A stretch of 64,000 bases of DNA from Frankia nepalensis (GTDB lineage: Bacteria > Actinomycetota > Actinomycetes > Frankiales > Frankiaceae), in assembly GCF_016786325.1 (NCBI RefSeq), contig NZ_JADWYU010000097.1, forward strand, positions 1 through 64,000. The letters run 5' to 3'. The notes beneath the pieces were generated by a model. That model searched no databases and was not told the DNA's origin. It was given only the letters and a program-made list of their open reading frames with translations. Made by a program: the position numbers and the translations under genes. Positions 3,037 to 20,637 of the stretch are shown piece by piece. The stretch's first letter is position 1; each line of letters opens with the position of its first letter.

Positions 3037-4161
3037 TCAGTAGTCGTCGGAAGGCGTGAAGAGGCCCTCGAACTCGAGCTTCCCGTCGCGGACCCGGCCG
3101 AAGTGCAGCCAGTCGCCCTTGAACAGCTGATGGTCGTGGGGCCCGCCGGCGATGTGGGTGTTGGGGCCGCCGGTGACCGCCGGCATGAACCGGATCCGCT
3201 CGAGGCCGACCTTCACGCCGGGGCCGGTGAGGACGGGCGCGCGGTGCAGCGCCTCGACGACGGCGGCGGCCATGTCGTACGCGAGGCCCGGGATGGCGTT
3301 CGGCCACATCCACGGGTCCTCGCCGTACCGGGCGACGAACCGCTCGTGGAACCGGTGCATCCGCGGGTTCTCCGGGCACCACTGGTCGATGCCGACCCAG
3401 CCCTCGAGCTGCTCGAAGCCCCAGATGTACTGCATGAACGCCGTGGTCATGATCCGCGGCGGGTCCCAGTCGATGTTCTCCAGCGCGGCCCGCACCGCTC
3501 CGGACACCACCAGGCCGCCGTAGCCGAGCCAGACCAGCGCGTCGGCGTTCGCGTCACGCAGGACCGCGAACTTTTCCGCCAGCTGGTCGGTGGTGGTCGC
3601 GTTGGTGATCTTCTCGATCGCGGCGATCGAGATGCCGAGCCGGCGGCACTCCTGGTGGAAGAACCGGACGTACTCCTCGCTGATCGGCGACCACGGCAGG
3701 ACGACCGCCACCCGCCGGTGCCCGTTGCGCTTCAGCCAGTTGACCATCAGCGCCGGGTCGCCGCCGACGTCGCCGTTGCCCATCCGGAAGCAGTACTCGC
3801 CGTGGAACTGGTCGGTCCCGCACATGCTGACCAGCGGCACCTGGGCGGCGTTCGCGTGCTCGGTGAGCGCGATCGCCGAGTCGGTGTAGTTGGCGCCGAC
3901 GACGGCGAGGCAGCCGGCGTCGACCAGCCGGTGGAACGCGTCGACGCCGCCCTTCGCCGTCCCCTGGGGCAGGCCCGCGTCGTCCTCGAACAGGAACTCG
4001 TAGCGGCGGTCGAGCACCCCGCGCTCGATCCCCTCGTCGAACGCCATCCGGATCTCGCGCTCGAAGCGCGCCCACTCCATGCCGAGCCAGCCGATCTTCG
4101 TGGGCTCGAGACGCAGCCAGCGGTCCTCGATCGACGGCGCCGCGGAACTCCCTGTCGTCAT
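3037..4161 (-). CDS. Branched-chain-type substrate-binding protein without a signal peptide
   Basis: A 374-residue periplasmic-binding-protein type 1 fold, like Leu/Ile/Val receptors and the amide sensor AmiC. IGWLGMEWARFEREIRMAF is the first strand and helix, VVGANYTDSAIALTEHA the ligand-side loop, and MVNWLKRNGHRRVAVVLPWS the second-lobe start. Unlike the lipoproteins at 5505, 22758 and 33627, it begins MTTGSSAAPSIEDRW with no hydrophobic stretch or lipobox. The start is well supported because the ATG shares one base with the stop of the phosphotransferase gene (TGATG). It is therefore probably cytosolic and may be a ligand sensor rather than a transport receptor. That role is inferred. Confidence 0.8.
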   Translation of the reverse strand: MTTGSSAAPSIEDRWLRLEPTKIGWLGMEWARFEREIRMAFDEGIERGVLDRRYEFLFEDDAGLPQGTAKGGVDAFHRLVDAGCLAVVGANYTDSAIALTEHANAAQVPLVSMCGTDQFHGEYCFRMGNGDVGGDPALMVNWLKRNGHRRVAVVLPWSPISEEYVRFFHQECRRLGISIAAIEKITNATTTDQLAEKFAVLRDANADALVWLGYGGLVVSGAVRAALENIDWDPPRIMTTAFMQYIWGFEQLEGWVGIDQWCPENPRMHRFHERFVARYGEDPWMWPNAIPGLAYDMAAAVVEALHRAPVLTGPGVKVGLERIRFMPAVTGGPNTHIAGGPHDHQLFKGDWLHFGRVRDGKLEFEGLFTPSDDY

Positions 4162-5300
4162 CACCACTCCTTGTCGTTGTCGTTCAGCACAGCGGTCAGG
4201 GCATCGTGGTCGGCGACCGCGGTCCCCAGGCGCGTCAGCAGCGCGCCGGTGATCGCCGGGTCGACCTTCAGGGTGATGCCCCACAGGAACAGGCCGTGGA
4301 CGACGCCCCGGCGCACGCGCAGCCAGGCGTCGTCCCAGGCCGGCGCGTCGACGCCACCGGCGCGCAGGTGGTCCAGGTAGTGCCGGACCAGGTCCCTCTC
4401 GGCGCGGCGGCGGTCGTCGACGGTCAGCGCGGACGCGATGTGGTAGCCGACGTCGAGGTACCACGGCCCGCGCTGCGCCAGCTGCCAGTCGACGAACGAC
4501 GGGCGGCCTTCGGCGTTCAGGTACACGTTGCCGACGTGCGCGTCACCGTGGATCACCGACCAGGGCGCCGCGGACGCCGCGTTCTCGGCGAGCCGCCGGT
4601 AGGCGTCGACGAGCCGGTCGGCGTCCCGGACCTCGACCGGCACGCCCGCGCCGATCGGGCCGGCGAAGTTGGCGCGGATCTCGGTCGCCCCGCGCTGCAC
4701 GAGATAGGTCGACAGCCGGGGCGCGAGCCAGCGCGCGTCGGCGAGCGCCGGGGCGCACCAGGTGGCGGCGTGCAGCCTGGCGAGCTCGGCCAGGCTTTCG
4801 GCCGTCTGGTCCGGTGTGTAGGGGGTGAGCGCGTCGAGGAAGACGGCACCCTGGGTGGCGACGTCCTCGGTGAGGACGACGCCGTAGCGGGTCCGCGGGT
4901 CGAAGTCGGCGTACACGGCGCGCAGCGTGCGCATTCCGGCCCAGCCGGCCACGTCCCGGTAGAAGCAGGCCTCCGGCTCGCCCGCCTGCCGGAAGGCGCG
5001 GCCGGCGGCGGTGAAGTAGCCCTTGCCGCACAGGTCCAGCGGCAGCCCGTCCGGCGCGGTGCCGTCCGCGCAGGTGATCCGGAAACGGGCGTTCGTGGCG
5101 ACCCGGCTGATGACCGGGCCGGGCGTGACCGCCGTGACCTGGACGCCGGGGAAGCGGCGGCCAAGCGCCGCGGTCAGCCAGGCCGGCGACAGCATCTCCT
5201 CGAGGGAGTCGGGCACCCGCGGCGCGGTGCCGGCGGACGCGGTGCCGGCGGGCGCGGCGGTGGCGGACGCGGCGGTGGTGTGGTCCCCGGCCGCGGTCAC
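4161..5300 (-). CDS. Phosphotransferase family protein (aminoglycoside phosphotransferase / choline kinase-like fold)
   Basis: A 379-residue kinase-like protein. The Brenner-type catalytic loop WSVIHGDAHVGNVYL (about residue 247) and the metal-binding FVDWQLAQRGPWYLD are both intact, so it should transfer phosphate from ATP to a small-molecule hydroxyl. Relatives in acyl-CoA catabolic clusters are often annotated only as phosphotransferase or ecdysteroid-kinase-like. The first 30 residues are Ala/Thr-rich and probably disordered. The GTG start overlaps the stop of a possible 33-codon ORF (GTGA), and its own stop overlaps the next start (TGATG), indicating tight coupling. A start further inside, near MLSPAWL, is possible. 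Confidence 0.82.
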   Translation of the reverse strand: MTAAGDHTTAASATAAPAGTASAGTAPRVPDSLEEMLSPAWLTAALGRRFPGVQVTAVTPGPVISRVATNARFRITCADGTAPDGLPLDLCGKGYFTAAGRAFRQAGEPEACFYRDVAGWAGMRTLRAVYADFDPRTRYGVVLTEDVATQGAVFLDALTPYTPDQTAESLAELARLHAATWCAPALADARWLAPRLSTYLVQRGATEIRANFAGPIGAGVPVEVRDADRLVDAYRRLAENAASAAPWSVIHGDAHVGNVYLNAEGRPSFVDWQLAQRGPWYLDVGYHIASALTVDDRRRAERDLVRHYLDHLRAGGVDAPAWDDAWLRVRRGVVHGLFLWGITLKVDPAITGALLTRLGTAVADHDALTAVLNDNDKEW

Positions 5301-5504: not shown

Positions 5505-6872
5505 CTAGTTGTTCGGGTACAGCGGCGTGCAGGCGAGCTTGACGGCCTCGGTGTACTTGCCGCCGGCAAGGTGGACGACGGAGGCGCACGGGGCGGCCGC
5601 GTTGTGGTTGACCGGCCACTGGGTCTCGCCGACGGCGCCGGGGACGTGGTAGCTGTAACTGCCCCCGTTGAGGGTCTTGAGCAGGTTCGCGACCGTGAGG
5701 TCGGGGCCGGTCTTCTCGATCGCGTCGAGGAAGAAGTCCGCCGACCAGTAGCCGGCCATCGCGGTCAGGGTGATCGGCTGGCCGGGGGCGTACTTGGCGA
5801 AGTCCGCCTCGAGCTGCTTGACGCCGGCCGAGCCGCTCTCCACGGGCGCCCACTGCACCAGGGTGTAGGTGTCCTCCAGGTCCTTGAAGCCTGTCAGCCG
5901 TGGGTCGTAGCCGAGCGGGGTGAGGATCTTGCCCTCGTAGCCGGCCGCGCGCAGCGCGGTGATGAGCTTGATGGCGGGCGCGAAGTCCACGATGGTGACG
6001 ATCAGGTCCGGCGGGGCGCCCTTGTCGGCGGCCATCAGGTCGTTGACGAGTGCCGTGGGGTCGTTGAGCCCAGCCGCCGGCACGGGGTTCTCGGAATAAG
6101 GCACGGAGAACCCGGCGGCCTTGACGCCCTTCGCGGCCAGGTTGATGCCGTTGACCGCGGAGTCGATGTCGACGCCGACGAACGCCACGCTCTTGTCCGT
6201 GATGCCGCCGAGGATGCCACTGGCGGCCATCGCCCACGTCGTCGAGATCGTCGGCCCGTCCGGCTCGGCGACCAGGCAGCCGGTCACACCGAAGCCGATG
6301 GCGGTGTTGCAGTAGGGCGCGCTCACTCCCCAGCCGAAGAACGGCGTCCCGGACTTGCAGAACGTGTCGGCGAAGTTGCCGGTGCGGACGACGGCGGGCA
6401 CGGCCGCGAAGACGCCGTCGGCGACCAGGGACTGGGCCTCGGTGAGGGTCCGGGCGGAGTCGGCGCCGTCGTCCCGGGTGCCGATGTAGTTGATCTTTCG
6501 GCCGTTGATGCCGCCCTCGTCGTTGGCCCGGCTGAACCGGGCCTTCGCGCCCACGTCCATCCCGGCGTTCACGGGCCCGCTCGTGCTGGACTGGGTGATC
6601 AGTCCGCCGATCTTGATCTCGGTGTCGGTGACGCCGCGGGCCGGCTCGCCGCCGGGCGCGGTGCAGTCGAGCTTGGCCGCGTCGACGGTGATGCCAGAGT
6701 TGCTCCAGCCCGAGTCCGGTCCCGCCTCGAACGCCTCCGGGCCGAGGGCCTGCGCCGACGCCGAGGGCTGCGCGCCACCGCCGGCTCCGTCGTCGTCCCC
6801 GCCGCCGCACGCGGCGACCAGTAAGAGCGCCGCCACGGCGGCGATGGGGACGAGTCTTCGGGAGCTATGCAT
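5505..6872 (-). CDS. Branched-chain-type substrate-binding lipoprotein (orphan receptor)
   Basis: A 455-residue secreted lipoprotein. A Lys/Arg-light n-region, a hydrophobic segment (LVPIAAVAALLLVAAC) and the lipobox LVAAC put the lipidated cysteine at about residue 22. The mature protein has the Leu/Ile/Val-receptor fold: TDTEIKIGGLI, GGINGRKINYIGTRDDGADS, FFGWGVSAPYCN and TAMAGYWSADFFLDAIEK. It is paralogous to the proteins at 22758 and 33627. No permease or ATPase gene lies in the window, so it either serves a transporter elsewhere or acts as a sensor. GGAGG sits before the ATG, and it follows the CoA transferase gene by 41 bases. A strong terminator follows it. Confidence 0.9.
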   Translation of the reverse strand: MHSSRRLVPIAAVAALLLVAACGGGDDDGAGGGAQPSASAQALGPEAFEAGPDSGWSNSGITVDAAKLDCTAPGGEPARGVTDTEIKIGGLITQSSTSGPVNAGMDVGAKARFSRANDEGGINGRKINYIGTRDDGADSARTLTEAQSLVADGVFAAVPAVVRTGNFADTFCKSGTPFFGWGVSAPYCNTAIGFGVTGCLVAEPDGPTISTTWAMAASGILGGITDKSVAFVGVDIDSAVNGINLAAKGVKAAGFSVPYSENPVPAAGLNDPTALVNDLMAADKGAPPDLIVTIVDFAPAIKLITALRAAGYEGKILTPLGYDPRLTGFKDLEDTYTLVQWAPVESGSAGVKQLEADFAKYAPGQPITLTAMAGYWSADFFLDAIEKTGPDLTVANLLKTLNGGSYSYHVPGAVGETQWPVNHNAAAPCASVVHLAGGKYTEAVKLACTPLYPNN

Positions 6873-6913
6873 TGCTGAACCTCCGTTGTGGTGCGGTGCG
6901 TGGTGGCGCGTCC

Positions 6914-8128
6914 TCAGAGGACGGCGCCGGATTCCTTGAGGCGCAAGATCTCGTCCCAGGTGAAGCCGTGCTCGAGCAGAACCTCGTCGGTGTGCTCGCC
7001 GTGGGCGGGGGCCGGGGTCAGGGCCGGGGGTGTGTCGTCGAACTGGGCGGGGCTGGCGACGAGTGGGTAGTCGTGGGAACCCTTCTGGACGGTCGTCACG
7101 AAGCTGTTCGACACCGCCTGCGGGTCGCCCGCTGCTTCTCGGGCGGTCTGCACGAGTGACCACGGCGTCGCGAGCCGCCCGAGCAGTTCGGTCCAGTAGG
7201 CGAGGTCGCGGCCCGCGAAGATCTCGTCGAGCGTCTCGATGCAGGCCGCCGCGTTGGCGGCCCGGGCCGCGGCCGTCGCGAACCGTGGGTCGTCCAGCAG
7301 CTCCGGCCGCTCCACCTCCCGGAAGAACTCCTCGACGTGCTTCTCCGTCTGGATTCCCGACAGGTAGATGAGCCGGTCGTCTCGGGTCAGGTAGGCGGCG
7401 ACGAAGGGGTTCGGCAGCCGTCGGTGCCGGTTGCGCGGGATGGCGTCGACGTCGTAGAGCTGGCTCGCGACGACGGCGGGCGAGAACATCCACATCCCGG
7501 ACGACAGGAGCGAGACGTCGACCACCGCCCCCTGGCCGGTCCGTTCCCGGCGGAAGAGCGCGGCGGCGATGCCGCCGGCGAGGAAGGCGCCGGAGGCGAG
7601 GTCGCCGAGGGCGGGTCCGGGTTGTGGGACGAACTCGTCGCTGACCTGGCTGGCGGCCTGTGCCATGCCGGTGCGGGCCCAGAAGTCGGTGTGGTCGAAG
7701 CCGCCCGCGTCGGCTTCCGGGCCGCGCGGCCCGTGCCCGCTCGCCCTGGCATAGATCAGGTTCGGTTTGACGGCGGTGAGGTCGCCGACGTCGACCCGGA
7801 ACCGGCGCCGCGCGCTGGGCAGCAGGTTGGTGATGAACACGTCGGCCGAGCCGACCAGCGCGGCCATCACCCGCTGGCCCCCGTCGGTGCGCTGGTCGAC
7901 CCCGACGCACCGCTTACCACGGTTGGTGATCTCCCACATGAAGGCGACGCCGACCTCGCGGTCGGGTAGTCCCGCGACCGGGTGGCCGTTCATCGGGTCC
8001 AGCGTCCCGGGTGGCACCACCTTGATGACGTCGGCGCCCCAGTCGGCGAGCACCGCCCCGGCTGACGGCGCGAAGGCGTACATCGACGCCTCGACGACGC
8101 GAACTCCGGCGAGCAGGTTGTAGGGCAT
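6914..8128 (-). CDS. CaiB/BaiF family CoA transferase
   Basis: A 404-residue class III CoA transferase, which moves CoA between acyl-CoA and a free acid through an aspartyl-CoA intermediate. Visible signatures are the N-terminal GVRVVEASMYAFAPSAGAVLADWGAD, the CoA-contact block NRGKRCVGVD, and ALGDLASG, where Asp176 matches the catalytic aspartate of the family. Length is normal. It sits between the amidohydrolase and binding-lipoprotein genes. In this setting it probably activates the carboxylic acid made by the P450, alcohol dehydrogenase and aldehyde dehydrogenase steps. The acid itself is unknown. Confidence 0.93.
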   Translation of the reverse strand: MPYNLLAGVRVVEASMYAFAPSAGAVLADWGADVIKVVPPGTLDPMNGHPVAGLPDREVGVAFMWEITNRGKRCVGVDQRTDGGQRVMAALVGSADVFITNLLPSARRRFRVDVGDLTAVKPNLIYARASGHGPRGPEADAGGFDHTDFWARTGMAQAASQVSDEFVPQPGPALGDLASGAFLAGGIAAALFRRERTGQGAVVDVSLLSSGMWMFSPAVVASQLYDVDAIPRNRHRRLPNPFVAAYLTRDDRLIYLSGIQTEKHVEEFFREVERPELLDDPRFATAAARAANAAACIETLDEIFAGRDLAYWTELLGRLATPWSLVQTAREAAGDPQAVSNSFVTTVQKGSHDYPLVASPAQFDDTPPALTPAPAHGEHTDEVLLEHGFTWDEILRLKESGAVL

Positions 8129-8191: not shown

Positions 8192-9352
8192 TCAGCTGCC
8201 GAGCAGCGCGCGCAGGTTCGTCTCGGCGATCTTGGAAGCGTCGCCGTCCGGGACGTCGGCGAGTGTCTTCTCGAGGTAGGCGCGGTTGTTGGGCCACAGG
8301 CCGTCGCCGTGCGGGTAGTCGCCCTCGAAGAGCAGGTTGTCGACGGGTACGTCGCCGAGGCTGCGCAGCGCGAACCGCTCGTCGACCAGGCAGGCGTACA
8401 TGTGCCTGGCGAAGACCTCGCGTGGGGGGCGGGTGTCCTTGGCGCCGGCCTGGCCGATGGTGACGTCGGTGCTGATCCGGTTGTCGTGGAACGCCTTCTC
8501 GGCGCGTTCGAGGATGTAGGGCACCCAGCCGGCGCCGCCCTCGGAGAGGATCACCTTCAGCTTGGGGAATCGCTCCAGGATTCCGCTGAACAGCCAGTCG
8601 ACGCAGGCCATCATCGAGTTGGCCCCGATGAGGGCGACCAGCACCGGCGGCGGGGCGTCGGGCGAGGTGGTCAGCAGCCGTGACGAGCTGCCGATGTGCA
8701 TGCAGACGGGGATCTCGGCGTCGTTGGCGACGGCCCACAGCGGGTCCCAGTGGTCGGTGTGTACCGAGGGCAGGCCGAGCACGGTGGGGTTCTCGGAGAA
8801 GGCGATCGTGCGGGCGCCTTTGGCGAGGACGCGCTTGAGTTCGGCCACTGCCTGGTCGATGTCGTGCAACGGCAGGATCGCGGCGCCGAAGAGCCGGTCG
8901 CGGTCGGTCGCGCACCATTCGTCGAGCAGGTAGTCGTTGTAGGTGCGCAGGCAGGCGAGCGCCAGCTCGTGGTCGGCGACGTTCAGGAAGAACCGGTGGC
9001 CGGCGAACCGGGCGTAGTTCGGGAAGCACAGCTGCCCCCACACGCCGTCGATGTCCATGTCCTTGAGCCGCTCGTCCGGGTCGTAGCAGCCGGGGCGGAT
9101 CTCGTCGAAGCGGGCGGTGCCGGGTGCCGGGGGGTAGCCGGCCTCGGGATGGCCCGGCAGCGCCCGACACGAGCCCATCGGGATGTAGGTGAGCTCGCCC
9201 TCGTAGAGCCAGGCCTGGCGGCCGTCGACCTCGACGATGCGCGGGCAGGCGTCGCGGAACCGCGCCGGCACCCGTTCGACCCACAGGTGCGCCGGCTCGA
9301 TGAGATGGTCGTCAGCCGACATGATCTTCGTGGACTCGGGCAACATCAGCAT
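8192..9352 (-). CDS. Amidohydrolase family protein (ACMSD-like TIM barrel)
   Basis: A 386-residue metal-dependent hydrolase or decarboxylase-like barrel of the amidohydrolase-2 group. SADDHLIEPAHLW is the N-terminal metal-site strand, in the D-x-H form common in actinobacteria. Other signatures are CMHIGSSSR, ILSEGGAGWVPYILER and a late aspartate in FEGDYPHGDGLWP. Members cleave or decarboxylate activated acids and are often encoded beside CoA transferases and luciferase-like oxidoreductases. The gene is 63 bases upstream of the CoA transferase and 55 bases after the thiolase-like gene, so co-transcription is likely. The exact reaction cannot be read from the sequence. Confidence 0.88.
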   Translation of the reverse strand: MLMLPESTKIMSADDHLIEPAHLWVERVPARFRDACPRIVEVDGRQAWLYEGELTYIPMGSCRALPGHPEAGYPPAPGTARFDEIRPGCYDPDERLKDMDIDGVWGQLCFPNYARFAGHRFFLNVADHELALACLRTYNDYLLDEWCATDRDRLFGAAILPLHDIDQAVAELKRVLAKGARTIAFSENPTVLGLPSVHTDHWDPLWAVANDAEIPVCMHIGSSSRLLTTSPDAPPPVLVALIGANSMMACVDWLFSGILERFPKLKVILSEGGAGWVPYILERAEKAFHDNRISTDVTIGQAGAKDTRPPREVFARHMYACLVDERFALRSLGDVPVDNLLFEGDYPHGDGLWPNNRAYLEKTLADVPDGDASKIAETNLRALLGS

Positions 9353-9407: not shown

Positions 9408-10568
9408 TCATCGGGGCGCGCCGAGGAGCAGTGAGGAGGTGAACTGTTCGGCGCCGCTGGTCACGACAGCCACCTGGGGACCGGAATCGAGCTGGTGAGC
9501 GCCGGCCTCACCCCTTAGCTGCAGGCACGCCTCGAGCAGGCCCCCGTACCCGTGCATCCGGCCGCCCGAGAGCTGCCCGCCGCCCGTGTTCAGCGGCAGC
9601 TCTCCGCCGGGCGCGATCCGGGTGCCGCCGTCGACGAAGTCCGTGCCCTCGTACGGGCCGCAGAAGCCGAGCGCCTCCAGCCACCGGATCGCGTACACCG
9701 TGAACCCGTCGTAGACCTGGGCGACGTCGACGTCGACCGGCTTCAGGTCGGTGCGGGACCACATCATCGCCGCGGCCTCGTCGAAGCCGGACGCGCTGCC
9801 CAGCCCCTCGAAGGTGACCGCGCGGGCCGGATCGGGCACGCTCGCGGCGCGGGAGACGACGAACGCCACCGAGCCGTCCACCGGCACGTCGCAGTCGAAC
9901 ATGCAGACCGGATCGGAGATCATCCGGGCGTCCAGGTACGCCTGGAGCGTGAGCGGCTCGCGGTAGACCGCCGTCTCGGTGCGCGCGGCGTTGCTCCGGC
10001 TGACGAGCGCGACCTGGGCGAACTGCTCCCGGGTGGCGCCGGCGAGCTCCATGCGCCGCCGCATGTCCAGCGCGGCGTGGCACGGGTAGCCGATCCCGAA
10101 CGGGGTGGTCCACTGCGCGAGCTCCCGGCCGAACCGGACCGGCCGGTCGGCCGTGCCCCCGCCGTCCAGCAAGGTAGCGGACCGGCTCCCGAAGCCCTGT
10201 TGCGCGGTGGACTCCCACACCGTCCGGAAGCACAGGACATGGGTCGCGAACCCGGCGGCGACGGCCAGGACGGCGTTGACGACGGAGCCCAGCTGCCCGG
10301 CGGTCTCGCCGCCGCCGCTGTGCCAGCGCAGCCGCAGCCCGAGCATCGCCCGCACGTCGTCGACACCGGCGCCGGTGATCCCCGGCGTCGACCAGAACGC
10401 CCCCGGATAGGTCGACACCCCGTCGATGTCGTCAGGGGTGAGCCCCGCGTCGGCGATCGCGGCGAGCGCCGCGTCCGCCGTCAGCACCCATGGGTCGATC
10501 CCGAGCCGGCGCCCGATCGGCGACCGCCCGACCCCGCTGATGACCGCCCGGCTCTCAGCCCGCTCCAT
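9408..10568 (-). CDS. Thiolase-like protein of the SCP-x/Ltp group, no visible nucleophilic cysteine
   Basis: A 386-residue thiolase-fold protein. The N-terminus (AVISGVGRSPIGRRLGIDP) and C-terminal NTGGGQLSGGRMHGYGG are typical. The loop that carries the nucleophilic Cys in true thiolases reads WHSGGGETAGQLG, with no Cys. A VYDGFTVYAIRWLEALGFC block resembles the tyrosine-containing active-site stretch of Ltp2-type retro-aldolases. It overlaps the DUF35 gene by 14 bases. In cholesterol side-chain catabolism Ltp2 works in a complex with a DUF35 domain, so an aldol-cleavage role is a reasonable inference. The alternative is a degradative thiolase with unusual residues. Confidence 0.88.
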   Translation of the reverse strand: MERAESRAVISGVGRSPIGRRLGIDPWVLTADAALAAIADAGLTPDDIDGVSTYPGAFWSTPGITGAGVDDVRAMLGLRLRWHSGGGETAGQLGSVVNAVLAVAAGFATHVLCFRTVWESTAQQGFGSRSATLLDGGGTADRPVRFGRELAQWTTPFGIGYPCHAALDMRRRMELAGATREQFAQVALVSRSNAARTETAVYREPLTLQAYLDARMISDPVCMFDCDVPVDGSVAFVVSRAASVPDPARAVTFEGLGSASGFDEAAAMMWSRTDLKPVDVDVAQVYDGFTVYAIRWLEALGFCGPYEGTDFVDGGTRIAPGGELPLNTGGGQLSGGRMHGYGGLLEACLQLRGEAGAHQLDSGPQVAVVTSGAEQFTSSLLLGAPR

Positions 10569-11028
10569 CGCCGGCCTCCGGCCGGAAGAGCGGGATGTAC
10601 GCCTCGCCGGCCCTGCTGAAGCACACCTTTACCGGGAGGCCGACGCGCAGCTCCTCCGGTGAGCAGTCGACGACGTTGGTGAGCAGCCGCAGGCCGGGCT
10701 GCTCGACGAGCTCGACGTCGGCGACCACGTACGGCGGCGGCATCGAGGGCACCCAGCCGTAGCGGTTCAACGTCCACGACCACACCGTGCCCCGGCCCGA
10801 GACCGGCGCGAACCCGACGTCGCGCCCCCGGCAGGCCGGGCAGACGGGCCGCGGCGGGTGCAGGTAGCGCCCGCAGCCGTGACAGCGGGCGATCCGCAGC
10901 ACGCCGTCCGCGCCGGAGGTCCAGAACGCGGCCGTCCGCTCGGTCAGCGGCGGCGCCACCCGCTCGAACGCCTCGACGACCAGCGCCGAGCCGTCCGGTG
11001 GCGCGTCGGTCATCGGGTCCGCGGTCAT
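10555..11028 (-). CDS. Zn-ribbon/OB-fold protein (DUF35)
   Basis: A 157-residue protein with a four-cysteine zinc ribbon (CHGCGRYLHPPRPVCPACRG, about residues 49-68) followed by an OB-fold (GRGTVWSWTLNRYG, PYVVADVELVEQPGLRLLTN). DUF35 proteins bind acyl-CoA and partner thiolase-like enzymes or MaoC hydratases. The ATG at 11028 overlaps the P450 stop (ATGA), which favours it over an ATG four codons upstream. The 3' end overlaps the thiolase-like gene. The pairing recurs at 29073-30628. Confidence 0.88.
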   Translation of the reverse strand: MTADPMTDAPPDGSALVVEAFERVAPPLTERTAAFWTSGADGVLRIARCHGCGRYLHPPRPVCPACRGRDVGFAPVSGRGTVWSWTLNRYGWVPSMPPPYVVADVELVEQPGLRLLTNVVDCSPEELRVGLPVKVCFSRAGEAYIPLFRPEAGDGAG

Positions 11029-12284
11029 CGGGCGTCCCACACGACCGGCACCGACGTCGGGCCGCGCTCGTACATCCCGACGATCCGCGGCGCCTCGGCG
11101 TCGGTGTCGAGGCGCAGGCCAGGCAGACGGTCGAGCAGCGCGTCGAGGGCGGTGTGGATCTCCGCCCGGGCGACGTGCATGCCCAGGCAGATGTGCGGCC
11201 CGCCGCCGAAGCCGAGGTGCGCGCCCGGCGGGCGGGTCGGGTCGAACTCGTCCGGGCGCTCCCAGCGGGCGGGGTCACGGTTGGCCGCGGCGAAGCACAG
11301 GTGCACCACCGAGCGGGCCGGGATCTCGACGCCGCCGAGCACCGTGTCCCTGATGGCGTAGCGGGCGAACATCGGGTCGGTCGGCAGCCAGCGCAGGGAC
11401 TCCTCGATCGCCGGGCGCAGCAGCGCCCGGTCGGCGCGGACGGCCTCCAGCCAGCGCGGATGCGTCAGCAGCGCGAGCAGCGTGATGCCCATCTGCTTCC
11501 AGGTGGTGCCGGAGCCCGCGGCGAGCAGAAGGAGCGCGAAGCCCAGGATGTCGGTGTCGGACAGGGCCTCGCGGGTGCCGTCCTCGCCGGTGACCTCGGC
11601 CTGGACGAGCACGCTGATGATGTCGTCCCGCGGTTCGAGCCGGCGTGCCCTGATGATGGGCAGGAGGATCTCGGCCAGCACCGCGCGGTCACGGCCGTCG
11701 GAGGTCGCCGCCTCGCGGATGCGCAGCGCGTCGGCGGCTCCCACTCCGAAGCTGCCGCAGATCGTCAGCAGGGGGATCGCCGCGCAGAACTCGACGTTGA
11801 GGTCGGCCCGCCCGTTGCGCTCGAACGTGTTGATGAGGGCGTGTACGGTCGCGTGGATCCAGCGCTCGGTCCACCAGGCGCCGCGCTTGGGCACGAACGA
11901 CCCCTGGACGAGCGCGCGGTAGCGGCGGTGCCGGTCGCCGTCGAAATAGAGCATGACCGAATCGCTCATGTCGAGCTCGGGGCCGGGCGCGGTCGGTTTC
12001 GAGACGAACGTGTCGCCGTCGCGCAGGACTTCCTGGCAGGTGGCGTAGTCGAAGACCGAGAAATGGGGCAGCTCGGGGTAGGGGAGGCCCTGGAAGAACG
12101 CCGCGCCGTGGTAGCCGACGAGCGGCCCGACGATGCCGGGGTGCACCGGTCCCGTTTCGCGGAGGCGGTGGAAGTCCGGGTACGGGTCCTTCTCGAAGGA
12201 ACCGCCGCGGGTGGCGTACACGTCGCTGCGCAGGTCGAACAGTTCGCGGATCCGCTGGGGGTCCAGCGTCACGGTCTCGCTCAT
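11025..12284 (-). CDS. Cytochrome P450
   Basis: A soluble bacterial P450 of 419 residues, inserting one oxygen atom using electrons from a ferredoxin. The I-helix oxygen-activation motif is LLLLAAGSGTTWKQ, the K-helix ExxR is EESLRW, and the heme loop is HLGFGGGPHICLGMHVAR with the ligand Cys intact. LYFDGDRHRRYRALVQGSF is the C-helix. The start at 12284 has AAGGG ten bases upstream; an in-frame ATG at 12311 would add nine residues. The ferredoxin gene, one gene away, is the obvious redox partner. The P450 is probably the first oxidative step of the cluster. Its subfamily cannot be assigned by eye. Confidence 0.95.
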   Translation of the reverse strand: MSETVTLDPQRIRELFDLRSDVYATRGGSFEKDPYPDFHRLRETGPVHPGIVGPLVGYHGAAFFQGLPYPELPHFSVFDYATCQEVLRDGDTFVSKPTAPGPELDMSDSVMLYFDGDRHRRYRALVQGSFVPKRGAWWTERWIHATVHALINTFERNGRADLNVEFCAAIPLLTICGSFGVGAADALRIREAATSDGRDRAVLAEILLPIIRARRLEPRDDIISVLVQAEVTGEDGTREALSDTDILGFALLLLAAGSGTTWKQMGITLLALLTHPRWLEAVRADRALLRPAIEESLRWLPTDPMFARYAIRDTVLGGVEIPARSVVHLCFAAANRDPARWERPDEFDPTRPPGAHLGFGGGPHICLGMHVARAEIHTALDALLDRLPGLRLDTDAEAPRIVGMYERGPTSVPVVWDAR

Positions 12285-12333
12285 CTCATGCCAGCCCTTT
12301 TCCTGTCCCATTTCTTGTCAGGCGCGTTTCTCG

Positions 12334-12816
12334 TCAGGCGCGTTCGAGGACGACGACGGGAATGCGCCGGGACGTGCGCCGCACGTACTCGTCGTAGTTC
12401 GGCCAGCTCGCGGCCATGATCTTCCAGAGGCGCTCGCGCTCCTCGCCCTCGGCGACGCGCGCCCGCGCCTCGAACCGGTCGGCGAGCACCTGCGCCTCGA
12501 CCCGGGGCTCGGCGACCAGGTTGTGGTACCAGCCCGGATGAGCGGGCAGCCCGCCCTGGGAGGCGATGACGACGTAGTTGTCGCCGTCGCGGCCGTAGAT
12601 GAGAGGTGTCGCGCGGCGCTGGCCGGTTCGCCGGCCGACGGTCCACAGCACGAGGCAGGTGACGCCGTTCCAGGCATGGCCGACGGCGCCGCCGGTCTCC
12701 AGATAACGCCGGACGTGCTCGGCGCCCAGCAGCGCCAGGTCGGGTGACGTGTAGGCCGGCGAGTCCTTCCCACCGCCCTCTTCCGCGGCGTGCTCGTCCG
12801 ATGCGTGCTCCGTCAT
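12334..12816 (-). CDS. Deazaflavin (F420)-dependent nitroreductase family protein
   Basis: A 160-residue split-barrel protein of the Ddn type. The block WTVGRRTGQRRATPLIYGRD followed by NYVVIASQGGLPAHPGWYHN is the cofactor-binding signature, and the C-terminal MAASWPNYDEYVRRTSRRIP closes the domain. Family members use reduced F420 or FMN to reduce quinones or unsaturated compounds. The ATG overlaps the ferredoxin stop (ATGA), with AAGGGA upstream. Its place between ferredoxin and P450 suggests it acts on the same substrate series or protects against quinone by-products. Confidence 0.88.
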   Translation of the reverse strand: MTEHASDEHAAEEGGGKDSPAYTSPDLALLGAEHVRRYLETGGAVGHAWNGVTCLVLWTVGRRTGQRRATPLIYGRDGDNYVVIASQGGLPAHPGWYHNLVAEPRVEAQVLADRFEARARVAEGEERERLWKIMAASWPNYDEYVRRTSRRIPVVVLERA

Positions 12817-13034
12817 GGCGTTTCCCTTCGTCTGAGCGCCCTCGACGGGCAGGAGTCGATGGCCGCGGCGACGGCGGCGGCGTCGTTGGTGTCGGCCGCC
12901 GCGTCGGCCTCGCCCAGCACGACGACCTTCATCTCGTCGTCGAGATCGAACGTTCCCGGCGCGTGGAACGCGCACGAGCCCGATCCGGTGCACAGCTCGC
13001 GGTCCACCTCGAAACCGAGGCCCGAACTCGCCAT
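12813..13034 (-). CDS. 3Fe-4S ferredoxin (P450 partner type)
   Basis: A 73-residue acidic ferredoxin. Cys15, Cys21 (CTGSGSC) and Cys62 (SCPSRAL) are the only cysteines, the arrangement of single 3Fe-4S ferredoxins that reduce bacterial P450s. AGGGAG lies before the ATG. The stop overlaps the start of the deazaflavin-dependent gene by ATGA, and the P450 follows that gene. No ferredoxin reductase is encoded nearby. Confidence 0.92.
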   Translation of the reverse strand: MASSGLGFEVDRELCTGSGSCAFHAPGTFDLDDEMKVVVLGEADAAADTNDAAAVAAAIDSCPSRALRRRETP

Positions 13035-13053
13035 CTCGTCGCTCCCTGTGTCC

Positions 13054-14541
13054 CTAGCGGGCGCCGGCGACGACGACGTGCTTGAGCTCCTGGTACTCCC
13101 GGAAACCCGCGACGCCGCGTTCGCGGCCGATCCCGCTCTGCTTCACTCCACCCATCGGCGTATAGGCGTTCGCGATACCCCGGTTCACCTGCACGGTTCC
13201 CGAACGGATCCGTTCGGCCACGCTCAGGCCGAGCTTCAGGTCACCGGTGTAGATCCCGCCCGACAGGCCGTAGTCCGAGTCGTTCGCGATGTCGACGGCC
13301 TGGTCGAGGTCGTCGTAGCCCTGGATGGTGACCACCGGGCCGAACGCCTCGCGCTGGGCGGCCGGGTTGCGGTTGTCGTCGACCAGCAGGACGGTCGGCG
13401 CCACGTAGTAGCCGACGTCGAGATGCGCCGGCCGGTCGCCGCCCGCGACGAGCTTCCCGCCGGCGTCGACACCGGCCGCGACCAGCCGCTCGATCCGGTC
13501 GCGCTGCGCCGCCGAGATGACGGGCCCGACGGCCGTCTCGGGGTCGCGCGGGTGCCCGACGCGCAGCGACCGCGCCACGCCCGCCACCCGCTCGACGGCG
13601 TCCGCGAGGTTCTCCCGGGGCACCAGCACCCGGGTCTGCAGCGCGCAGCCCTGGCCGGCCATCGATCCGAAGACGGTCGCGACCCCGCTCTCCAGCCCGC
13701 CCGGCCCGAGCGCGTCCGGGAGGTACAGCGCCACCGACTTGCCGCCGAGCTCCAGCACGACCCGTTTCACCGTCGGCGCCGCCTGCGCGGCGATGCGCCG
13801 GCCGACGTCGGTCGAGCCGGTGAACGAGACGCAGTCGACCCGCCGGTCGGCGGTGAGCAGTTCCGCGCCGGCCGAACCGGCCTCGACGACGACGTTGAGC
13901 GTGCCGGGAGGCAGACCCGCCTCCCGCGCGGCGGCGCCGAGCGCCAGCGCGGTGATCGGCGTCAGCGGGCTCGGCCGCAGGACCACCGAACAGCCGGCGG
14001 CCAGCGCCGAGAACACCTTCCACACGCTCGTCTGCAGCGGGAAGTTGTACGGCGTGATCGCCGCGACGACTCCGCAGGGCTCGTAACGGCGGATGCTGAG
14101 CACCACGTCGCGGCCGGTCGGGTCGAGCGAGTCCGCCAGCGGCAGCTCGTTGTGCTCCCAGTCGGGCAACGTCGCGAACAGCTCCGGCAGCGCCCGGGCG
14201 TGCTCGAGCGCCATGTCCACCTGGGCCCACCGCGCGACCAGCGCCGTCGAGCCGGTCTCGCGGATCGCCGTCTCGACGAGCTCGGCGTGGCGCGCGGCCA
14301 GCGCGTCCGCCATCCGGGCGAGCGTGGCCGCCCGCTCGCGGGCGGGCTGCCGGCTCCATGGCCCCCGGTCGAACGCGCGCCTGGCCGCCTCGATCGCCGC
14401 GTCGACCTGCGCGAGCGACGCGGTGGGCACGGTGGTGAAGATCTCCTCGTGCGCCGGGTCCTCGACGCCAAGCGTCTCCGACGCCCCGTCGACGGGTAAT
14501 CCATCGATATAGAGCTGCGCGAAACTGAGATGGTCTGCCAA
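13054..14541 (-). CDS. NAD(P)-dependent aldehyde dehydrogenase
   Basis: A 495-residue aldehyde dehydrogenase. The cofactor fold shows ITPYNFPLQTSVWK and VSFTGSTDVGRR. The general-base glutamate is in VVLELGGKS and the nucleophilic cysteine in GQGCALQTRV. The C-terminal MGGVKQSGIGRERG is also typical. I chose a TTG start at 14541 (ADHLSFAQLYIDG) because GGAG lies seven bases upstream and the length then matches the family; an ATG at 14688 would add an Arg-rich tail unlike the family. It is first in the minus-strand catabolic series, facing the TetR gene across the palindromic region. It probably oxidises the aldehyde from the alcohol dehydrogenase step. Confidence 0.93.
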   Translation of the reverse strand: MADHLSFAQLYIDGLPVDGASETLGVEDPAHEEIFTTVPTASLAQVDAAIEAARRAFDRGPWSRQPARERAATLARMADALAARHAELVETAIRETGSTALVARWAQVDMALEHARALPELFATLPDWEHNELPLADSLDPTGRDVVLSIRRYEPCGVVAAITPYNFPLQTSVWKVFSALAAGCSVVLRPSPLTPITALALGAAAREAGLPPGTLNVVVEAGSAGAELLTADRRVDCVSFTGSTDVGRRIAAQAAPTVKRVVLELGGKSVALYLPDALGPGGLESGVATVFGSMAGQGCALQTRVLVPRENLADAVERVAGVARSLRVGHPRDPETAVGPVISAAQRDRIERLVAAGVDAGGKLVAGGDRPAHLDVGYYVAPTVLLVDDNRNPAAQREAFGPVVTIQGYDDLDQAVDIANDSDYGLSGGIYTGDLKLGLSVAERIRSGTVQVNRGIANAYTPMGGVKQSGIGRERGVAGFREYQELKHVVVAGAR

Positions 14542-14703
14542 GGTCGGACTCCGGTCCCTGAGCGTGGATCTGCCGCGAGGACGCGCCGGTGCACGGAGCA
14601 ACCGACACGACGAATCGACGGCAGGCCGGCACGTATTTCTGGCGCGTGCCGCGCGGCGTGCCGAAAAGACTTTTCCTGGGATCGCCAACGGGGTCGTCGT
14701 CGT

Positions 14704-14737
14704 CTCTAGTCAACTGACTATAGCCATGTGACTAGAG
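14704..14737. promoter_or_regulatory. Three-half-site palindromic operator, probable TetR site
   Basis: TAGTCA (14707-14712) and TGACTA (14715-14720) form a dyad with a two-base centre, and a third half-site TGACTA lies at 14729-14734. The outer pair extends to a perfect 9-bp inverted repeat, CTCTAGTCA and TGACTAGAG. The site sits between the divergent aldehyde dehydrogenase and TetR genes, the expected location for a TetR operator controlling both. Confidence 0.7.
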
Positions 14738-14798
14738 CCACGCAAGGGGTCGCCGCGGACAGCGGCCGGGCGGCGGGCGAGCGGCTTACGATCCACGC

Positions 14799-15491
14799 GT
14801 GGCAGTTGCCGGCAACACCTCAGAACCCGCGGACACGGCTGCGCCGGAGGCATCCGGGGCGCCCGAGGCGGGCACCCCCGCGCGGCGGCCACGCGGCCGT
14901 CAGGAGGTCCGGGAGGCCCTGCTCGAGGCGGCGCAGCGACTGATCGCCGAGCAGGGGCCGGCAAATGTGCGGCTGCGTGAGATCGCGGACGCCGCCGGCG
15001 TGAACTTCGGCCTCGTCTACCAGTACCTCGGCACCAGAGAGGACCTGCTGCACGAGGTTTACCAACGGGTCGCGGTCCGGTCGGCGACCCGTTTCGAGCA
15101 CATCGAGGCACTCGCCGATGTCGTCGACATCTTCCTGACGATCGCGGACGGCAGCATCGGCCGCATCATGGGCTGGGCGGCGCTCGAGGGCGGCTATTCC
15201 GTCGACGGAGTTTTCGGCCACTCGCCCGCGCAGGACCAGGTCGCCGGGATCATCTCCCGCGAGGCCCGCCAGCACGATCACGAGGTGCCGGACGAGGAGG
15301 CGCGGGTCTTCGCGGCCTTCCTGCAGGTGGTCGCCCTCGGCTGGCGGCTGTTCCGGCCGATCGGGCTGGCCACCGCGGGAGTCGACCCGGCCGCGGTCGA
15401 CGCCGACGCGCTGGTCACGAAGTGGCTGCACCTGCTGTCCGACGCGGTGGTGCGCGGCGACCCGGCCACCCACACCGCTCCGCCCGCCTGA
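14799..15491 (+). CDS. TetR family transcriptional regulator
   Basis: A 230-residue regulator. About 35 Ala/Pro-rich residues precede a TetR DNA-binding domain: REALLEAAQRLIAEQGPANV, then RLREIADAAGVNFGLVYQYL with the recognition helix, then GTREDLLHEVYQR. The remaining helical region is the ligand and dimer domain. Start is GTG at 14799. It is divergent from the P450/aldehyde-dehydrogenase operon and has a palindromic site about 60 bases upstream. It is therefore the likely local repressor, released by a pathway intermediate such as an acyl-CoA. The effector is inferred, not seen. Confidence 0.93.
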   Translation: MAVAGNTSEPADTAAPEASGAPEAGTPARRPRGRQEVREALLEAAQRLIAEQGPANVRLREIADAAGVNFGLVYQYLGTREDLLHEVYQRVAVRSATRFEHIEALADVVDIFLTIADGSIGRIMGWAALEGGYSVDGVFGHSPAQDQVAGIISREARQHDHEVPDEEARVFAAFLQVVALGWRLFRPIGLATAGVDPAAVDADALVTKWLHLLSDAVVRGDPATHTAPPA

Positions 15492-18203: not shown

Positions 18204-18983
18204 CTACTTGGGCTGGAGGCGGGCGCCGCCGTCGATGCGGATGACCTCGGCGTTCAGGTAGCTGTTGGTGATCAGTTCGACGGCGAGCGTGGCGAACTCG
18301 TCGGCGGTGCCGAGCCGATGCGGGAAGAGGACGTCCCGCTTGAGCTTCTCCTTGAACGCCTCGGAGCCGGGGCCCTCGCCGTAGATCGGGGTGTCGATCA
18401 TGCCGGGGGCGATGCAGTTGACCCGTACCCCGATGACGGACAGGTCGCGGGCGACCGGCAGCGTCATGCCGACGACCCCGCCCTTGGAGGTGGAATAGGC
18501 GGCCTGGCCGATCTGGCCGTCGAAGGCCGCCAGCGACGCGGTGTTGACGATCGCGCCGCGCTCCCCGTCGGCCGTCAGCGGGTCGGTGGCCGCCATCGCG
18601 GTCGCGACGATCCGGATGGCGTCGAACGTGCCGATCGTGTTGACCTCGATGACCCGGCGGAACGCGTCGAGGCTGTGGGCCGAGTCGTAGGTGCCGTCCC
18701 TGCCGATGGTGCGCCCGGCCCAGCCGATGCCGGCGCAGTTCACCAGGGCGCGCACCGGCCCCAGACCCTTGGCCACCTCGGTCGCGGCGATGATGGCCTC
18801 GGTCGAGGTGACGTCGACGTGCGCGAACACGCCGCCGACCTCCTCCGCGACGGCCGCGCCCTTCGCGTCGTCCCGGTCGGCGACCACGACGCGCGCGCCC
18901 CGCGCCGCCAGCAGCCGCGCGACCGCCGCGCCCAGCCCCGACGCCCCGCCGGTGACGATCGCCACCGAGTCCCTGATGTCCAC
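18204..18983 (-). CDS. SDR, 3-hydroxyacyl-CoA dehydrogenase type II-like
   Basis: A 259-residue SDR opening [20 protein letters not shown], close in style to HSD10/type II 3-hydroxyacyl-CoA dehydrogenases. It has [12 protein letters not shown], a Ser in [11 protein letters not shown], the catalytic pair YSTSK, and an N-terminal-like aspartate in ADRDD that favours NAD. The GTG start is preceded by GGAGG at five bases. It is divergent from the carboxylase gene and first in an operon with the SnoaL-like and luciferase-like genes. The likely step is oxidation of a beta-hydroxyacyl-CoA to the keto form. Confidence 0.92.
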
Positions 18984-19024
18984 GCCGTCCTCCGGTCCAT
19001 CCCGTCCGACCCGCTGGATTCCGC

Positions 19025-19039
19025 TGGAACTGCATTCTA
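19025..19039 (-). promoter_or_regulatory. Candidate promoter/operator between SDR and carboxylase genes
   Basis: On the minus strand TAGAATGCAGTTCCA contains a -10-like TAGAAT about 50 bases before the SDR start. It also forms an imperfect dyad (AGAAT and GTTCC) that recalls half-sites of TetR-type lipid regulators. The 145-base divergent spacer has no other clear signal. Confidence 0.3.
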
Positions 19040-19128
19040 GGGATGGCGGGTCCGAGAGAAGCGGAACCGGCCCGGCGCGGCACGCTGACCTCTTGCGGCG
19101 GAGAAACAGGGTTCCATACTGTGGTCGG

Positions 19129-20637
19129 GTGGCGGACGACTTGCACGGGTGGGGCCCGGCGCTGGCCGAGATCGGCGGCCGCAAGGCGGTGGCCGCCGCC
19201 ATGGGTGGCGAGGGCCGCCTCGTCCGGCAGGCCGCGCGCGGCCGGCTGAACGCCCGCGAGCGGCTGGCCGCCCTGTTCGACAAGGACACCTTCTACGAGA
19301 TCGGCGCTCTCGTCGGCGCCACGGACGACCCGCCGGCGCCCGCCGACGCGTTCGTCGCCGGTGCCGGGCGGATCGACGGGCGCCCGGCGCTCGCCGGGGC
19401 CGAGGACGTCACCGTGCTCGGCGGCTCGATCGGCACCGGCGCCGCCGACAAGCGCTACCGCCTGACCCAGCTCGCCCGCCAGGAGCGGGTGCCGCTGGTG
19501 ATGATGCTCGAGGGCGCGGGCCACCGGGTCACCGGACACGCGACCGGCCGCCGTCCTGGCGACCTCGGCGGACTGGTCGAGCTGTCCGGCCTGGTGCCGA
19601 TGGTCTGCCTGGTGCTGGGCGCCTCCGCCGGCCACGGCGCGCTGACCGCCCCGATCTGCGACTTCGTCGCGATGACCGCGACCGCGTCGATCTTCTCCGC
19701 GGGCCCGCCGCTGGTCCGCTCGGCGACCGGTGAACAGATCAGCAAGGAGGACCTCGGCGGGCCTGACGTCGCCGCCGCCACCGGTGGCGTCGTGCACAAC
19801 GTCGTCGCCGACGACGCCGAGGCGATCGCGCTCGCCCGCCGCTACCTGCGCTACTTCCCGCTCAATTCCGTCGAGCCACCACCGCGGCGGCTCGACGGCC
19901 CGGACGTCGGGCCGCGCCGGGTCGACGAGCTGCTCGAACTGATCCCGCCTGATCCCCGCCGGCCTTACGCCATCCGGCCGGTGCTCGAGGCCGTCGTCGA
20001 CGACGGCGAGCTGCTGGAGGTGCAGCCGCACTTCGGCTCCTCGCTGGTGACCGCGCTCGCCCACCTCGGCGGGCACGCCGTCGCGATCGTCGCCAACGAC
20101 CCGAGCGTGCTCGCCGGCGCCATCGACTCGGACGCCGCCGACAAGGCGGCTCACTTCCTGCAGGTGGCCGGGGCGTTCGGCCTGCCGTGCGTGTTCCTCG
20201 CCGACAACCCCGGGGTGCTCGCCGGCAGCGCCGCCGAGCGGGCCGGCATCCTGCGCCACGCCGCCCGGATGTACGCCGTCCAGCACCGGCTGACGGTCCC
20301 GAAGCTGCATGTGACGCTGCGCAAGGCGTTCGGGTTCGGGTCGTCGGTGATGGCGATGAACCCCTTCGACGGCCAGACGCTCACGCTGGCCTTCCCGTCG
20401 ATCACGCTGGGCGCGCTGCCGGCCGGCTCCACCGCGAGCAGGATCGAGGATCCCGAGGAGCGGGCGCGGGTGGCCGCCGAGCAGGCGAGGGCGTCCGTCA
20501 CCGGCGGCGCGAGGCTCTCCTACGACGACGTCATCGACCCGCGCGAGCTGCGCAACGCCCTGCTCGCCGGACTGATGCTCAGCGAGGGCCGCGAGTGGGG
20601 TGGCTCTTCCCAGGCGCCCGCCGGGATCCTCCCGTGA
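19129..20637 (+). CDS. Acyl-CoA carboxylase beta subunit (carboxyltransferase)
   Basis: A 502-residue carboxyltransferase with two crotonase-like halves. GRLNARERLAALFDKDTFYEIG opens the domain. The first oxyanion region is in MMLEGAGHRVTGHATGRRPG, and the second half shows VFLADNPGVLAGSAAERAG and AFGFGSSVMAMNPFDGQT. It would transfer CO2 from biotin to an acyl-CoA alpha carbon, or act in reverse. It needs a biotin carboxylase/carrier subunit, which is not in the window. Start is a GTG with weak upstream spacing support. The stop overlaps the next start as GTGA, so the two are co-translated. Confidence 0.9.
   Translation: MADDLHGWGPALAEIGGRKAVAAAMGGEGRLVRQAARGRLNARERLAALFDKDTFYEIGALVGATDDPPAPADAFVAGAGRIDGRPALAGAEDVTVLGGSIGTGAADKRYRLTQLARQERVPLVMMLEGAGHRVTGHATGRRPGDLGGLVELSGLVPMVCLVLGASAGHGALTAPICDFVAMTATASIFSAGPPLVRSATGEQISKEDLGGPDVAAATGGVVHNVVADDAEAIALARRYLRYFPLNSVEPPPRRLDGPDVGPRRVDELLELIPPDPRRPYAIRPVLEAVVDDGELLEVQPHFGSSLVTALAHLGGHAVAIVANDPSVLAGAIDSDAADKAAHFLQVAGAFGLPCVFLADNPGVLAGSAAERAGILRHAARMYAVQHRLTVPKLHVTLRKAFGFGSSVMAMNPFDGQTLTLAFPSITLGALPAGSTASRIEDPEERARVAAEQARASVTGGARLSYDDVIDPRELRNALLAGLMLSEGREWGGSSQAPAGILP

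Follow-up and report, generated by a model that had tools for sequence, protein, structure and literature searches.

A cysteine-free thiolase-like/DUF35 gene pair of Frankia nepalensis, a possible retro-aldolase of a third active-site type beside a PtmU3/DitZ-type oxygenase gene

The window analysed here, a 64,000-nucleotide stretch at the start of contig NZ_JADWYU010000097.1 of the soil actinobacterium Frankia nepalensis, carries on its minus strand a gene for a thiolase-like protein (9408-10568) preceded by a gene for a DUF35 protein (10555-11028). The locus raises the question of what reaction a thiolase fold serves when its nucleophilic cysteine is absent. A sequence-only reading of this DNA likened the pair to the Ltp2-DUF35 complex of steroid catabolism and proposed that it cleaves the side chain of a beta-hydroxyacyl-coenzyme A (CoA)-like compound. 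The evidence presented below tips slightly towards a DUF35-dependent retro-aldolase with a third type of active site, fed by a substrate-making beta-hydroxylase/oxygenase encoded next to it. Such an enzyme is of the same kind as the known DUF35-dependent thiolase-fold aldolases; new are the active-site set, the fusion of the two proteins in relatives, and the tie to a dinuclear oxygenase.

The thiolase-like gene is a real open reading frame (ORF) of 386 amino acids (aa), in which both motifs pointed out by the sequence-only reading were found as described, the nucleophile loop WHSGGGETAGQLG and the Tyr-bearing block VYDGFTVYAIRW. The protein contains the Pfam domain Thiolase_C_1 (E = 6.4e-30), its closest named relatives are Pseudofrankia, Frankia, and Parafrankia records (92-80% identity), and its nearest solved sequence is that of the Ltp2-ChsH2(DUF35) complex of T. 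curvata (PDB 6ok1; E = 2.4e-45). The same entry is the best fold match of its AlphaFold2 model (mean predicted local distance difference test, pLDDT, 82.4; predicted template modelling score, pTM, 0.87), with a Foldseek TMq of 0.82 and a VIA Z score of 44.2 (root-mean-square deviation 2.7, 356 residues aligned), and the thiolase fold of the predicted model is also seen in Z scores of 40.1 to 6esq, 39.0 to 7pxp, and ca. 30 to biosynthetic thiolases. The low-confidence part of the model, residues 128-159, overlaps a loop disordered in Ltp2 and Sal (PMC12329534). The DUF35 protein likewise has its nearest solved relative in 6ok1 (E = 8.6e-20), so the choice of Ltp2-DUF35 as the nearest solved system held for both subunits by sequence and for the thiolase-like subunit by predicted fold. 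These two matches, together with a gene order recurring in relatives, place the pair far above chance.

In alignment with the Cys-bearing proteins 7yvy and 7pxp, the nucleophile column holds Thr89, directly preceded by the conserved acid Glu88, while TcLtp2 has Gly83 there. None of the six cysteines of the protein (113, 163, 222, 226, 303, and 348) falls in the nucleophile loop or at the YDGF block, and there is none beyond 348. Moreover, the His residues of the HDxF and GHP motifs of Cys-dependent thiolases are replaced by Tyr286 and Arg337. The loss of the thiolase cysteine, as first claimed, is thereby borne out, and the absence of thiolase chemistry via the usual cysteine is supported by these alignments. 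According to PMC12329534, TcLtp2 uses Tyr294 as base and Tyr344 as acid, with His296 in the oxyanion hole, while in the bile acid aldolase CtSal-Shy(DUF35) (9myr) Tyr302 and Cys304 of CtSal are catalytic and Gln352 takes the place of Tyr344. The F. nepalensis protein, 39% identical to TcLtp2 over 353 aligned residues, shares with it the fold, the DUF35 partner gene, the lack of the nucleophile Cys, the base Tyr294 (Tyr286), and His346 (His339), but has Arg337 at the place of Tyr344 and Gly288 at that of His296. With CtSal (30% identity over 318 aligned residues) it shares the fold, the partner, the Tyr base motif, and the lack of the nucleophile Cys, but Cys304 and Gln352 correspond to Gly288 and Arg337, respectively. 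Alignment with the two Ltp2 tyrosines, set beforehand as the refuting test, therefore gave a divided answer, with one tyrosine retained and the other exchanged for Arg. The protein scores 222.3 bits, below the cut-off of 469, with the NF005892/PRK07855 model. We take this model, whose cut-off is exceeded by 15 matches spread over 10 of 41 genomes, to stand for Ltp2, judging from matches such as L042 (best solved relative 6ok1, 3.8e-176). Ltp2 orthology, and with it full equivalence to Ltp2, was rejected on the grounds of this score, the Arg337 and Gly288 exchanges, and a separate position in the tree.

Judged by its sequence, the thiolase-like protein belongs to a clade sister to Ltp2, with the signature YDGF...GGQLSxGRxH, found in Actinomycetota, Proteobacteria, and one metagenome-assembled genome (MAG) of Myxococcota. 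The combination Tyr/Gly/Arg/His occurs in 38 and Tyr/His/Tyr/His in 14 of 84 thiolase-like proteins, but as these were gathered by likeness to the F. nepalensis protein, to NF005892, and to the clade's own alignment A1 (L068 dropped as a duplicate, as were rows shorter than 300 aa), the Tyr/Gly/Arg share is not a frequency in nature. The independent test of the clade is a tree built without the motif columns, by a quick search with long branches flagged, from 75 of the 84 rows (fragments L018 and L017_3 and the near-duplicates L028, L031, L039, L040, L045, L049, and L077 left out). It places the F. nepalensis protein in a core of 29 rows, all Tyr/Gly/Arg (Shimodaira-Hasegawa-like approximate likelihood ratio test, SH-aLRT, 96), within a 36-row clade (SH-aLRT 97) of which 34 rows are Tyr/Gly/Arg, the exceptions being L080 (Tyr/Gly/Ala) and L083 (Tyr/Cys/Tyr). 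The adjoining 23-row clade (SH-aLRT 99) holds TcLtp2 and has Tyr-x-Tyr in 22 rows.

An alignment of 104 rows, including named plasmid members and near-identical orthologues but not L018 and L017_3, contains 52 Tyr/Gly/Arg and 29 Tyr-x-Tyr rows; the two sets were picked by Ltp2 places 294, 296, and 344, so those residues are constant by construction. At other positions, Trp296 and Asp227 are found in 52/52 Tyr/Gly/Arg rows versus 0/29 Tyr-x-Tyr rows, Tyr211 in 52/52 versus 7/29, and Glu or Asp at 88 in 44/52 versus 1/29; Asp287 and the whole Asp225-Cys226-Asp227 stretch are present in all 52 Tyr/Gly/Arg rows and His339 in 51. Among the plasmid proteins, H8 has Asn in place of His339, and H22 is Tyr/Gly/Gly. 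None of the ten clade members scanned (the F. nepalensis protein and nine others) reaches any NCBIfam cut-off. A match above 360 bits to the clade alignment was found in 14 of 296 genomes of the phylum, F. nepalensis included, and exceeds 470 bits in 11 of them; the next match listed has 318 bits, and the G027 protein that passes NF005892 scores 273. Plasmid-borne members are known from Rhodococcus, Mycobacterium, Streptomyces, Massilia, Caulobacter, Sphingobium, Sphingopyxis, and Sphingomonas.

The DUF35 ORF spans 10555-11040 (minus strand), the preferred start being the ATG at 11028, within an ATGA overlap of 4 nucleotides (nt) with the stop codon of the P450 gene. Its overlap with the thiolase-like gene, noted in the sequence-only reading, amounts to 14 nt. 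The protein combines zf-ChsH2 (4.1e-10) and OB_ChsH2_C (1.5e-18) domains of Pfam, that is, a zinc ribbon, with four cysteines (49, 52, 63, and 66) compared with the C3H1 type of Shy (PMC12329534), and an OB fold. Both domains are joined to Thiolase_C_1 in one ORF in the F. nepalensis paralogues L052, L054, L055, and L056 and in the Rhodococcus rhodochrous plasmid gene L108, annotated merely as an OB-fold domain-containing protein. Plasmid loci were taken from PLSDB, and 15 of the Tyr/Gly/Arg type were opened (not counting H10, H13, H15, and H17, which likewise exceed 40% identity); four of these, H4, H5, H6, and H8, have a long gene of the fused type (537-561 aa), of which the Pfam scan covered that of H6. 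At H9 the OB-fold gene lies three genes away from the thiolase-like one. In the F. nepalensis genome, 22 of 25 thiolase-like places (28 matches, pieces merged by hand) have a DUF35 match no more than 2.5 kb away. The overlap, the fusions, and this proximity argue for a DUF35-thiolase heteromer.

The gene following the pair on the same strand (8192-9352) codes for an Amidohydro_2 (Pfam) protein whose best matches are DitZ (8uyr; 3.2e-50), its closest solved sequence and presumably an abietane degradation protein, and PtmU3 (6omp; 1.3e-42), the best decarboxylase match being 5.4e-10. PtmU3 places the C-5 hydroxyl ahead of A-ring cleavage in platensimycin and platencin biosynthesis, and as this hydroxyl is beta to the acyl-CoA on C-4, a retro-aldol cleavage would be expected to follow. 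In alignment to PtmU3 and DitZ all seven metal-site residues are kept: Asp14, His16, His219, Glu271, Asp345, and His348, together with the acid Asp350. The list consists of the six AibH2 ligands and the extra acid Glu313 of PtmU3 (PMC7782822). The same paper describes PtmU3 as a beta-hydroxylase of diterpenoid biosynthesis taking CoA-ligated substrates, and PtmU3 and AibH2 are grouped as amidohydrolase-related dinuclear oxygenases in PMC10811679. The neighbour is accordingly classed, from its sequence, as a putative PtmU3/DitZ-type dinuclear oxygenase, predicted to carry out an O2-dependent hydroxylation. An ACMSD/LigJ-type decarboxylase or hydratase was considered and rejected on account of the best matches, DitZ and PtmU3, and of the full set of dinuclear-site residues.

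The pair and the oxygenase gene belong to a run of minus-strand genes in the order aldehyde dehydrogenase (13054-14565), F420H2-dependent reductase of the deazaflavin-dependent, nitroreductase-type family (12334-12816), cytochrome P450 (11025-12311), DUF35, thiolase-like, Amidohydro_2, a CaiB-type (family III) CoA-transferase proposed as the acyl-CoA maker (6914-8128), two solute-binding protein genes around a kinase gene, and a zinc-type alcohol dehydrogenase (1863-2984), the likely end of the run. A TetR-type regulator gene (14799-15491, plus strand) diverges from it. The gaps between the thiolase-like and Amidohydro_2 genes and between the latter and the CaiB-type gene are 55 and 63 nt, respectively. 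The solute-binding proteins are both of the Peripla_BP_6 type (5505-6902 and 3037-4164), and the kinase between them is APH/EcKL-like (4161-5300). The nearest solved sequences of the P450 are a CYP125 ancestor (7.6e-46) and 4ggv (6.5e-45), a near-tie, so that the match tells little about the substrate. Neither an acyl-CoA dehydrogenase nor a MaoC hydratase is present among the scanned operon genes.

In the proposed pathway a methyl group on a bulky compound, probably an alicyclic one, would be oxidised to a carboxylate by the P450 together with the two dehydrogenases (for alcohol and aldehyde), and the CaiB-type protein would form the CoA thioester from it. The PtmU3/DitZ-like oxygenase would then place a hydroxyl on the beta carbon, and the thiolase-like/DUF35 heteromer would cut the alpha-beta C-C bond in a retro-aldol reaction. 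Tyr286 would accept the hydroxyl proton, and the bond would break to release an acyl-CoA enolate along with a ketone or aldehyde; Arg337, with His339 and possibly Glu88, may hold and reprotonate the enolate in place of Tyr344 of Ltp2. A retro-aldolase supplied by a beta-hydroxylase is the preferred reading. Ltp2 and Sal depend on a dehydrogenase and a MaoC hydratase, both missing from this operon, which offers an oxidation route (P450 and the alcohol and aldehyde dehydrogenases), CoA activation by CaiB, and beta-hydroxylation.

The association of the oxygenase with the pair was followed in relatives, whose gene lists (including those of L028, L031, and the PtmU3-type loci) come from a codon-composition rule, not from annotation. 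Four loci of the Frankia group (L025, L026, L027, and L031) repeat the gene order DUF35 - thiolase-like - Amidohydro_2 - CaiB, as does L029, a short MAG contig from Acidimicrobiia that ends within CaiB. Locus L028 of Frankia AgB1.9 keeps the TetR, aldehyde dehydrogenase, F420, P450, DUF35, and thiolase-like genes, and has in its vicinity one distant Amidohydro_2 gene (57 bits) on the opposite strand. An oxygenase-like gene is present at seven of the 15 opened Tyr/Gly/Arg plasmid loci, with the whole motif in five (H3, H5, H6, H9, and H18); at H14 the gene is cut by the end of the stretch, at H29 it is split over two frames, and at H11 an oxygenase-like gene has 6/7 metal-site residues. Plasmid loci of other types have such a gene in one case out of six (H22). 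CaiB-type genes, often present whichever type the pair belongs to, do not discriminate between the two kinds of locus. In the F. nepalensis genome, seven of the 20 best oxygenase-like matches (all above 215 bits, taken by score, not by metal residues) have a DUF35 match at most 10 kb away against 0.86 expected, a value that assumes even placement and counts as independent three of the seven on contig C397. The oxygenase often, but not always, accompanies the pair, and it does so beyond the Tyr/Gly/Arg subtype as well. Separately, the oxygenase-like gene beside the pair of Rhodococcus YL-1 (L124:11888-13032) consists of two overlapping frames, perhaps owing to a frameshift.

A search for PtmU3 itself within one genus, by inference Streptomyces, covered 392 genomes and gave a 99% match in one of them, G619. 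In the platensimycin-type cluster of this genome (L134:9202-13429), PtmU3 is directly followed by genes for a CoA-ligase-like protein (identified by visual inspection), a thiolase-like protein, and a DUF35 protein, in this order. The thiolase-like protein has no loop Cys and is 35% identical to TcLtp2, and the DUF35 protein contains OB_ChsH2_C (1e-21). The same oxygenase type is thus found together with thiolase-like and DUF35 genes as in F. nepalensis, the differences being the active-site pattern and a biosynthetic, not catabolic, setting. This more distant pair is proposed as a candidate for cleavage of the A ring in platensimycin biosynthesis. Six of 21 further PtmU3-type matches were opened (L136-L141), and a Cys-less thiolase-like gene with DUF35 stands beside the PtmU3-type gene at L139 (Tyr/Gly/Ala) and L141 (Tyr/His/Tyr). 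At L140, in a Streptomyces-like genome, three Amidohydro_2 genes like the F. nepalensis oxygenase gene lie within 5 kb (9860-14863).

A Cys-less pair outside steroid metabolism has a precedent in IpfD/IpfE of the ibuprofen plasmid pIBU218, a thiolase-like and OB-fold pair without a loop Cys, credited in the MPO218 study with propionyl-CoA release from ibuprofen (PMC9195938). The ipfD gene, assigned by gene order, is L113:13229-14827, annotated as hypothetical and located beside an OB-fold gene. IpfD differs from the F. nepalensis protein in being Tyr/Ala/Tyr, with 38% identity, and in lying beside aromatic-ring dioxygenase genes. A second pIBU218 pair, with the same protein accession as H40, is Tyr/His/Tyr. 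The SCP2-type thiolases (6hsj, 3zbg) and the benzoylsuccinyl-CoA thiolase BbsAB (7pxp) share the fold, and BbsB also has an OB-fold partner, but differ in the catalytic residues described above. The Rhodococcus oxybenzonivorans plasmid carries a fused member beside a P450 gene, and no known benzophenone-3 gene of this species appeared among the matches listed (title and start of abstract). A literature search, with most subscription papers outside its reach, did not find OB-fold, thiolase, cytochrome P450, amidohydrolase, and CoA transferase combined, and among the matches listed there was no joint mention of PtmU3 or DitZ with DUF35 or of PtmU3 with a retro-aldol reaction.

The same fold and partner would also suit a retro-aldolase working as Ltp2 and Sal do, its beta-hydroxyacyl-CoA arising by dehydrogenation and hydration elsewhere or through the P450, and the dinuclear enzyme having another role, e.g., an earlier hydroxylation. 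MaoC/FAS1-DH-type genes near L033 and L035 (Pfam) and H3, H4, H14, H16, and H18 (annotated) speak for this explanation, as does the lack of the oxygenase at some Tyr/Gly/Arg loci. Nevertheless, it is considered rather unlikely, since the scanned operon genes include neither the dehydrogenase nor the hydratase, and the DUF35 protein occurs on its own or, in relatives, forms one chain with the thiolase domain, while according to PMC12329534 Ltp2 and Sal bind their hydratase via DUF35. Direct attack by water or CoA on a CoA ester of the beta-keto or malonyl type, in a retro-Claisen reaction or a decarboxylation, appears improbable. The thiolase fold and the CoA-type operon would fit it, and weak malonyl-CoA decarboxylation by TbSLP is cited in PMC12329534; however, the loop offers no nucleophile, the kept Tyr base suits an alcohol substrate better, and Sal, also Cys-less, is stated in the same paper to have made no acetyl-CoA from malonyl-CoA. 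That the protein is a pseudoenzyme or binding partner, for instance an acyl-CoA carrier for the oxygenase, might be suggested by the loss of the classical catalytic residues and by the naming of other thiolase-fold proteins as lipid-transfer proteins, but is highly improbable, as a polar set (Asp287, Trp296, Asp225-Cys226-Asp227, Tyr211, and His339) is strictly conserved over phyla, unlike in a decayed site; Tyr286, Gly288, and Arg337 do not enter this argument, the set having been picked by them.

Several observations weigh against the favoured retro-aldolase fed by the oxygenase. Since the acids of both Ltp2 (Tyr) and Sal (Cys304) are absent, the proton donor is a guess, as is the acid role of Arg337, arginine being an unusual general acid; Glu88 or His339 may serve instead. 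The AlphaFold2 model is a monomer without DUF35, ligand, or side-chain distances. No activity data are known to us for any Tyr/Gly/Arg member, a point to which no search was specifically directed. As regards gene content, L028 has no orthologous oxygenase or CoA-transferase beside its pair, L031 is devoid of the aldehyde dehydrogenase and F420 genes, the L029 oxygenase gene reads in two frames, and seven of the 15 opened Tyr/Gly/Arg plasmid loci are without an oxygenase-like gene, which conversely occurs beside pairs of other types (L063, L020, L080, and H22). No OB-fold gene is listed for the H3 and H16 stretches in the PLSDB table, which is incomplete. Finally, the pair near PtmU3 is of the Tyr/Pro/Trp pattern, at L138 DUF35 accompanies a thiolase that has the Cys, a BbsB-type ORF with no DUF35 listed is present at L136 and at L137, and no thiolase-like/DUF35 pair was seen at L140.

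As for the substrate, the beta-hydroxyacyl-CoA type proposed at first is likely in view of the adjacent oxygenase gene, while the side chain and the steroid found no specific support, and opening of a ring is as likely as side-chain cleavage. The genome has four KshA_C matches above the cut-off, and its best match to the biphenyl-diol dioxygenase model reaches 48.7 versus 366 bits, a weak test of steroid catabolism, since this model is not the steroid enzyme itself.

The F. nepalensis genome, 10.73 Mb in 398 contigs, contains 28 thiolase-like matches (some being pieces of one gene) and 23 DUF35 matches, which point to use on many compounds; with 63 matches of the Amidohydro_2 neighbour and 68 of the CaiB type, pieces included, the counts represent a very large catabolic expansion. 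The window itself comprises a second thiolase-like/DUF35 pair (29073-30628, minus strand), which at 545.9 bits exceeds the 469-bit NF005892/PRK07855 cut-off and has Tyr at the place of Ltp2 Tyr344 and YENF in place of YDHF. Near the cluster lies a Carboxyl_trans (acyl-CoA carboxylase) gene (18691-20637, plus strand), possibly handling propionyl-CoA freed by such cleavages.

Taken more broadly, and with somewhat more doubt than trust, the pair may represent a third class of Cys-free thiolase-fold C-C lyases, with a Tyr base and Arg in place of the acid, acting after an amidohydrolase-fold dinuclear oxygenase in a module spread across Actinomycetota and Proteobacteria that would cut where beta-oxidation cannot, the PtmU3-side pair being the candidate for the A ring. 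If this is true, genes named thiolase, lipid-transfer protein, and amidohydrolase would encode two consecutive steps of one pathway type, the beta-carbon hydroxylation of a bulky acyl-CoA followed by bond cleavage. The ring-cleavage step of platensimycin biosynthesis would gain named candidate genes, and the exchange of Tyr, Cys, and Arg would be a natural experiment on one fold swapping its catalytic acid. For F. nepalensis, the large paralogous set of thiolase-like genes would acquire a testable function.

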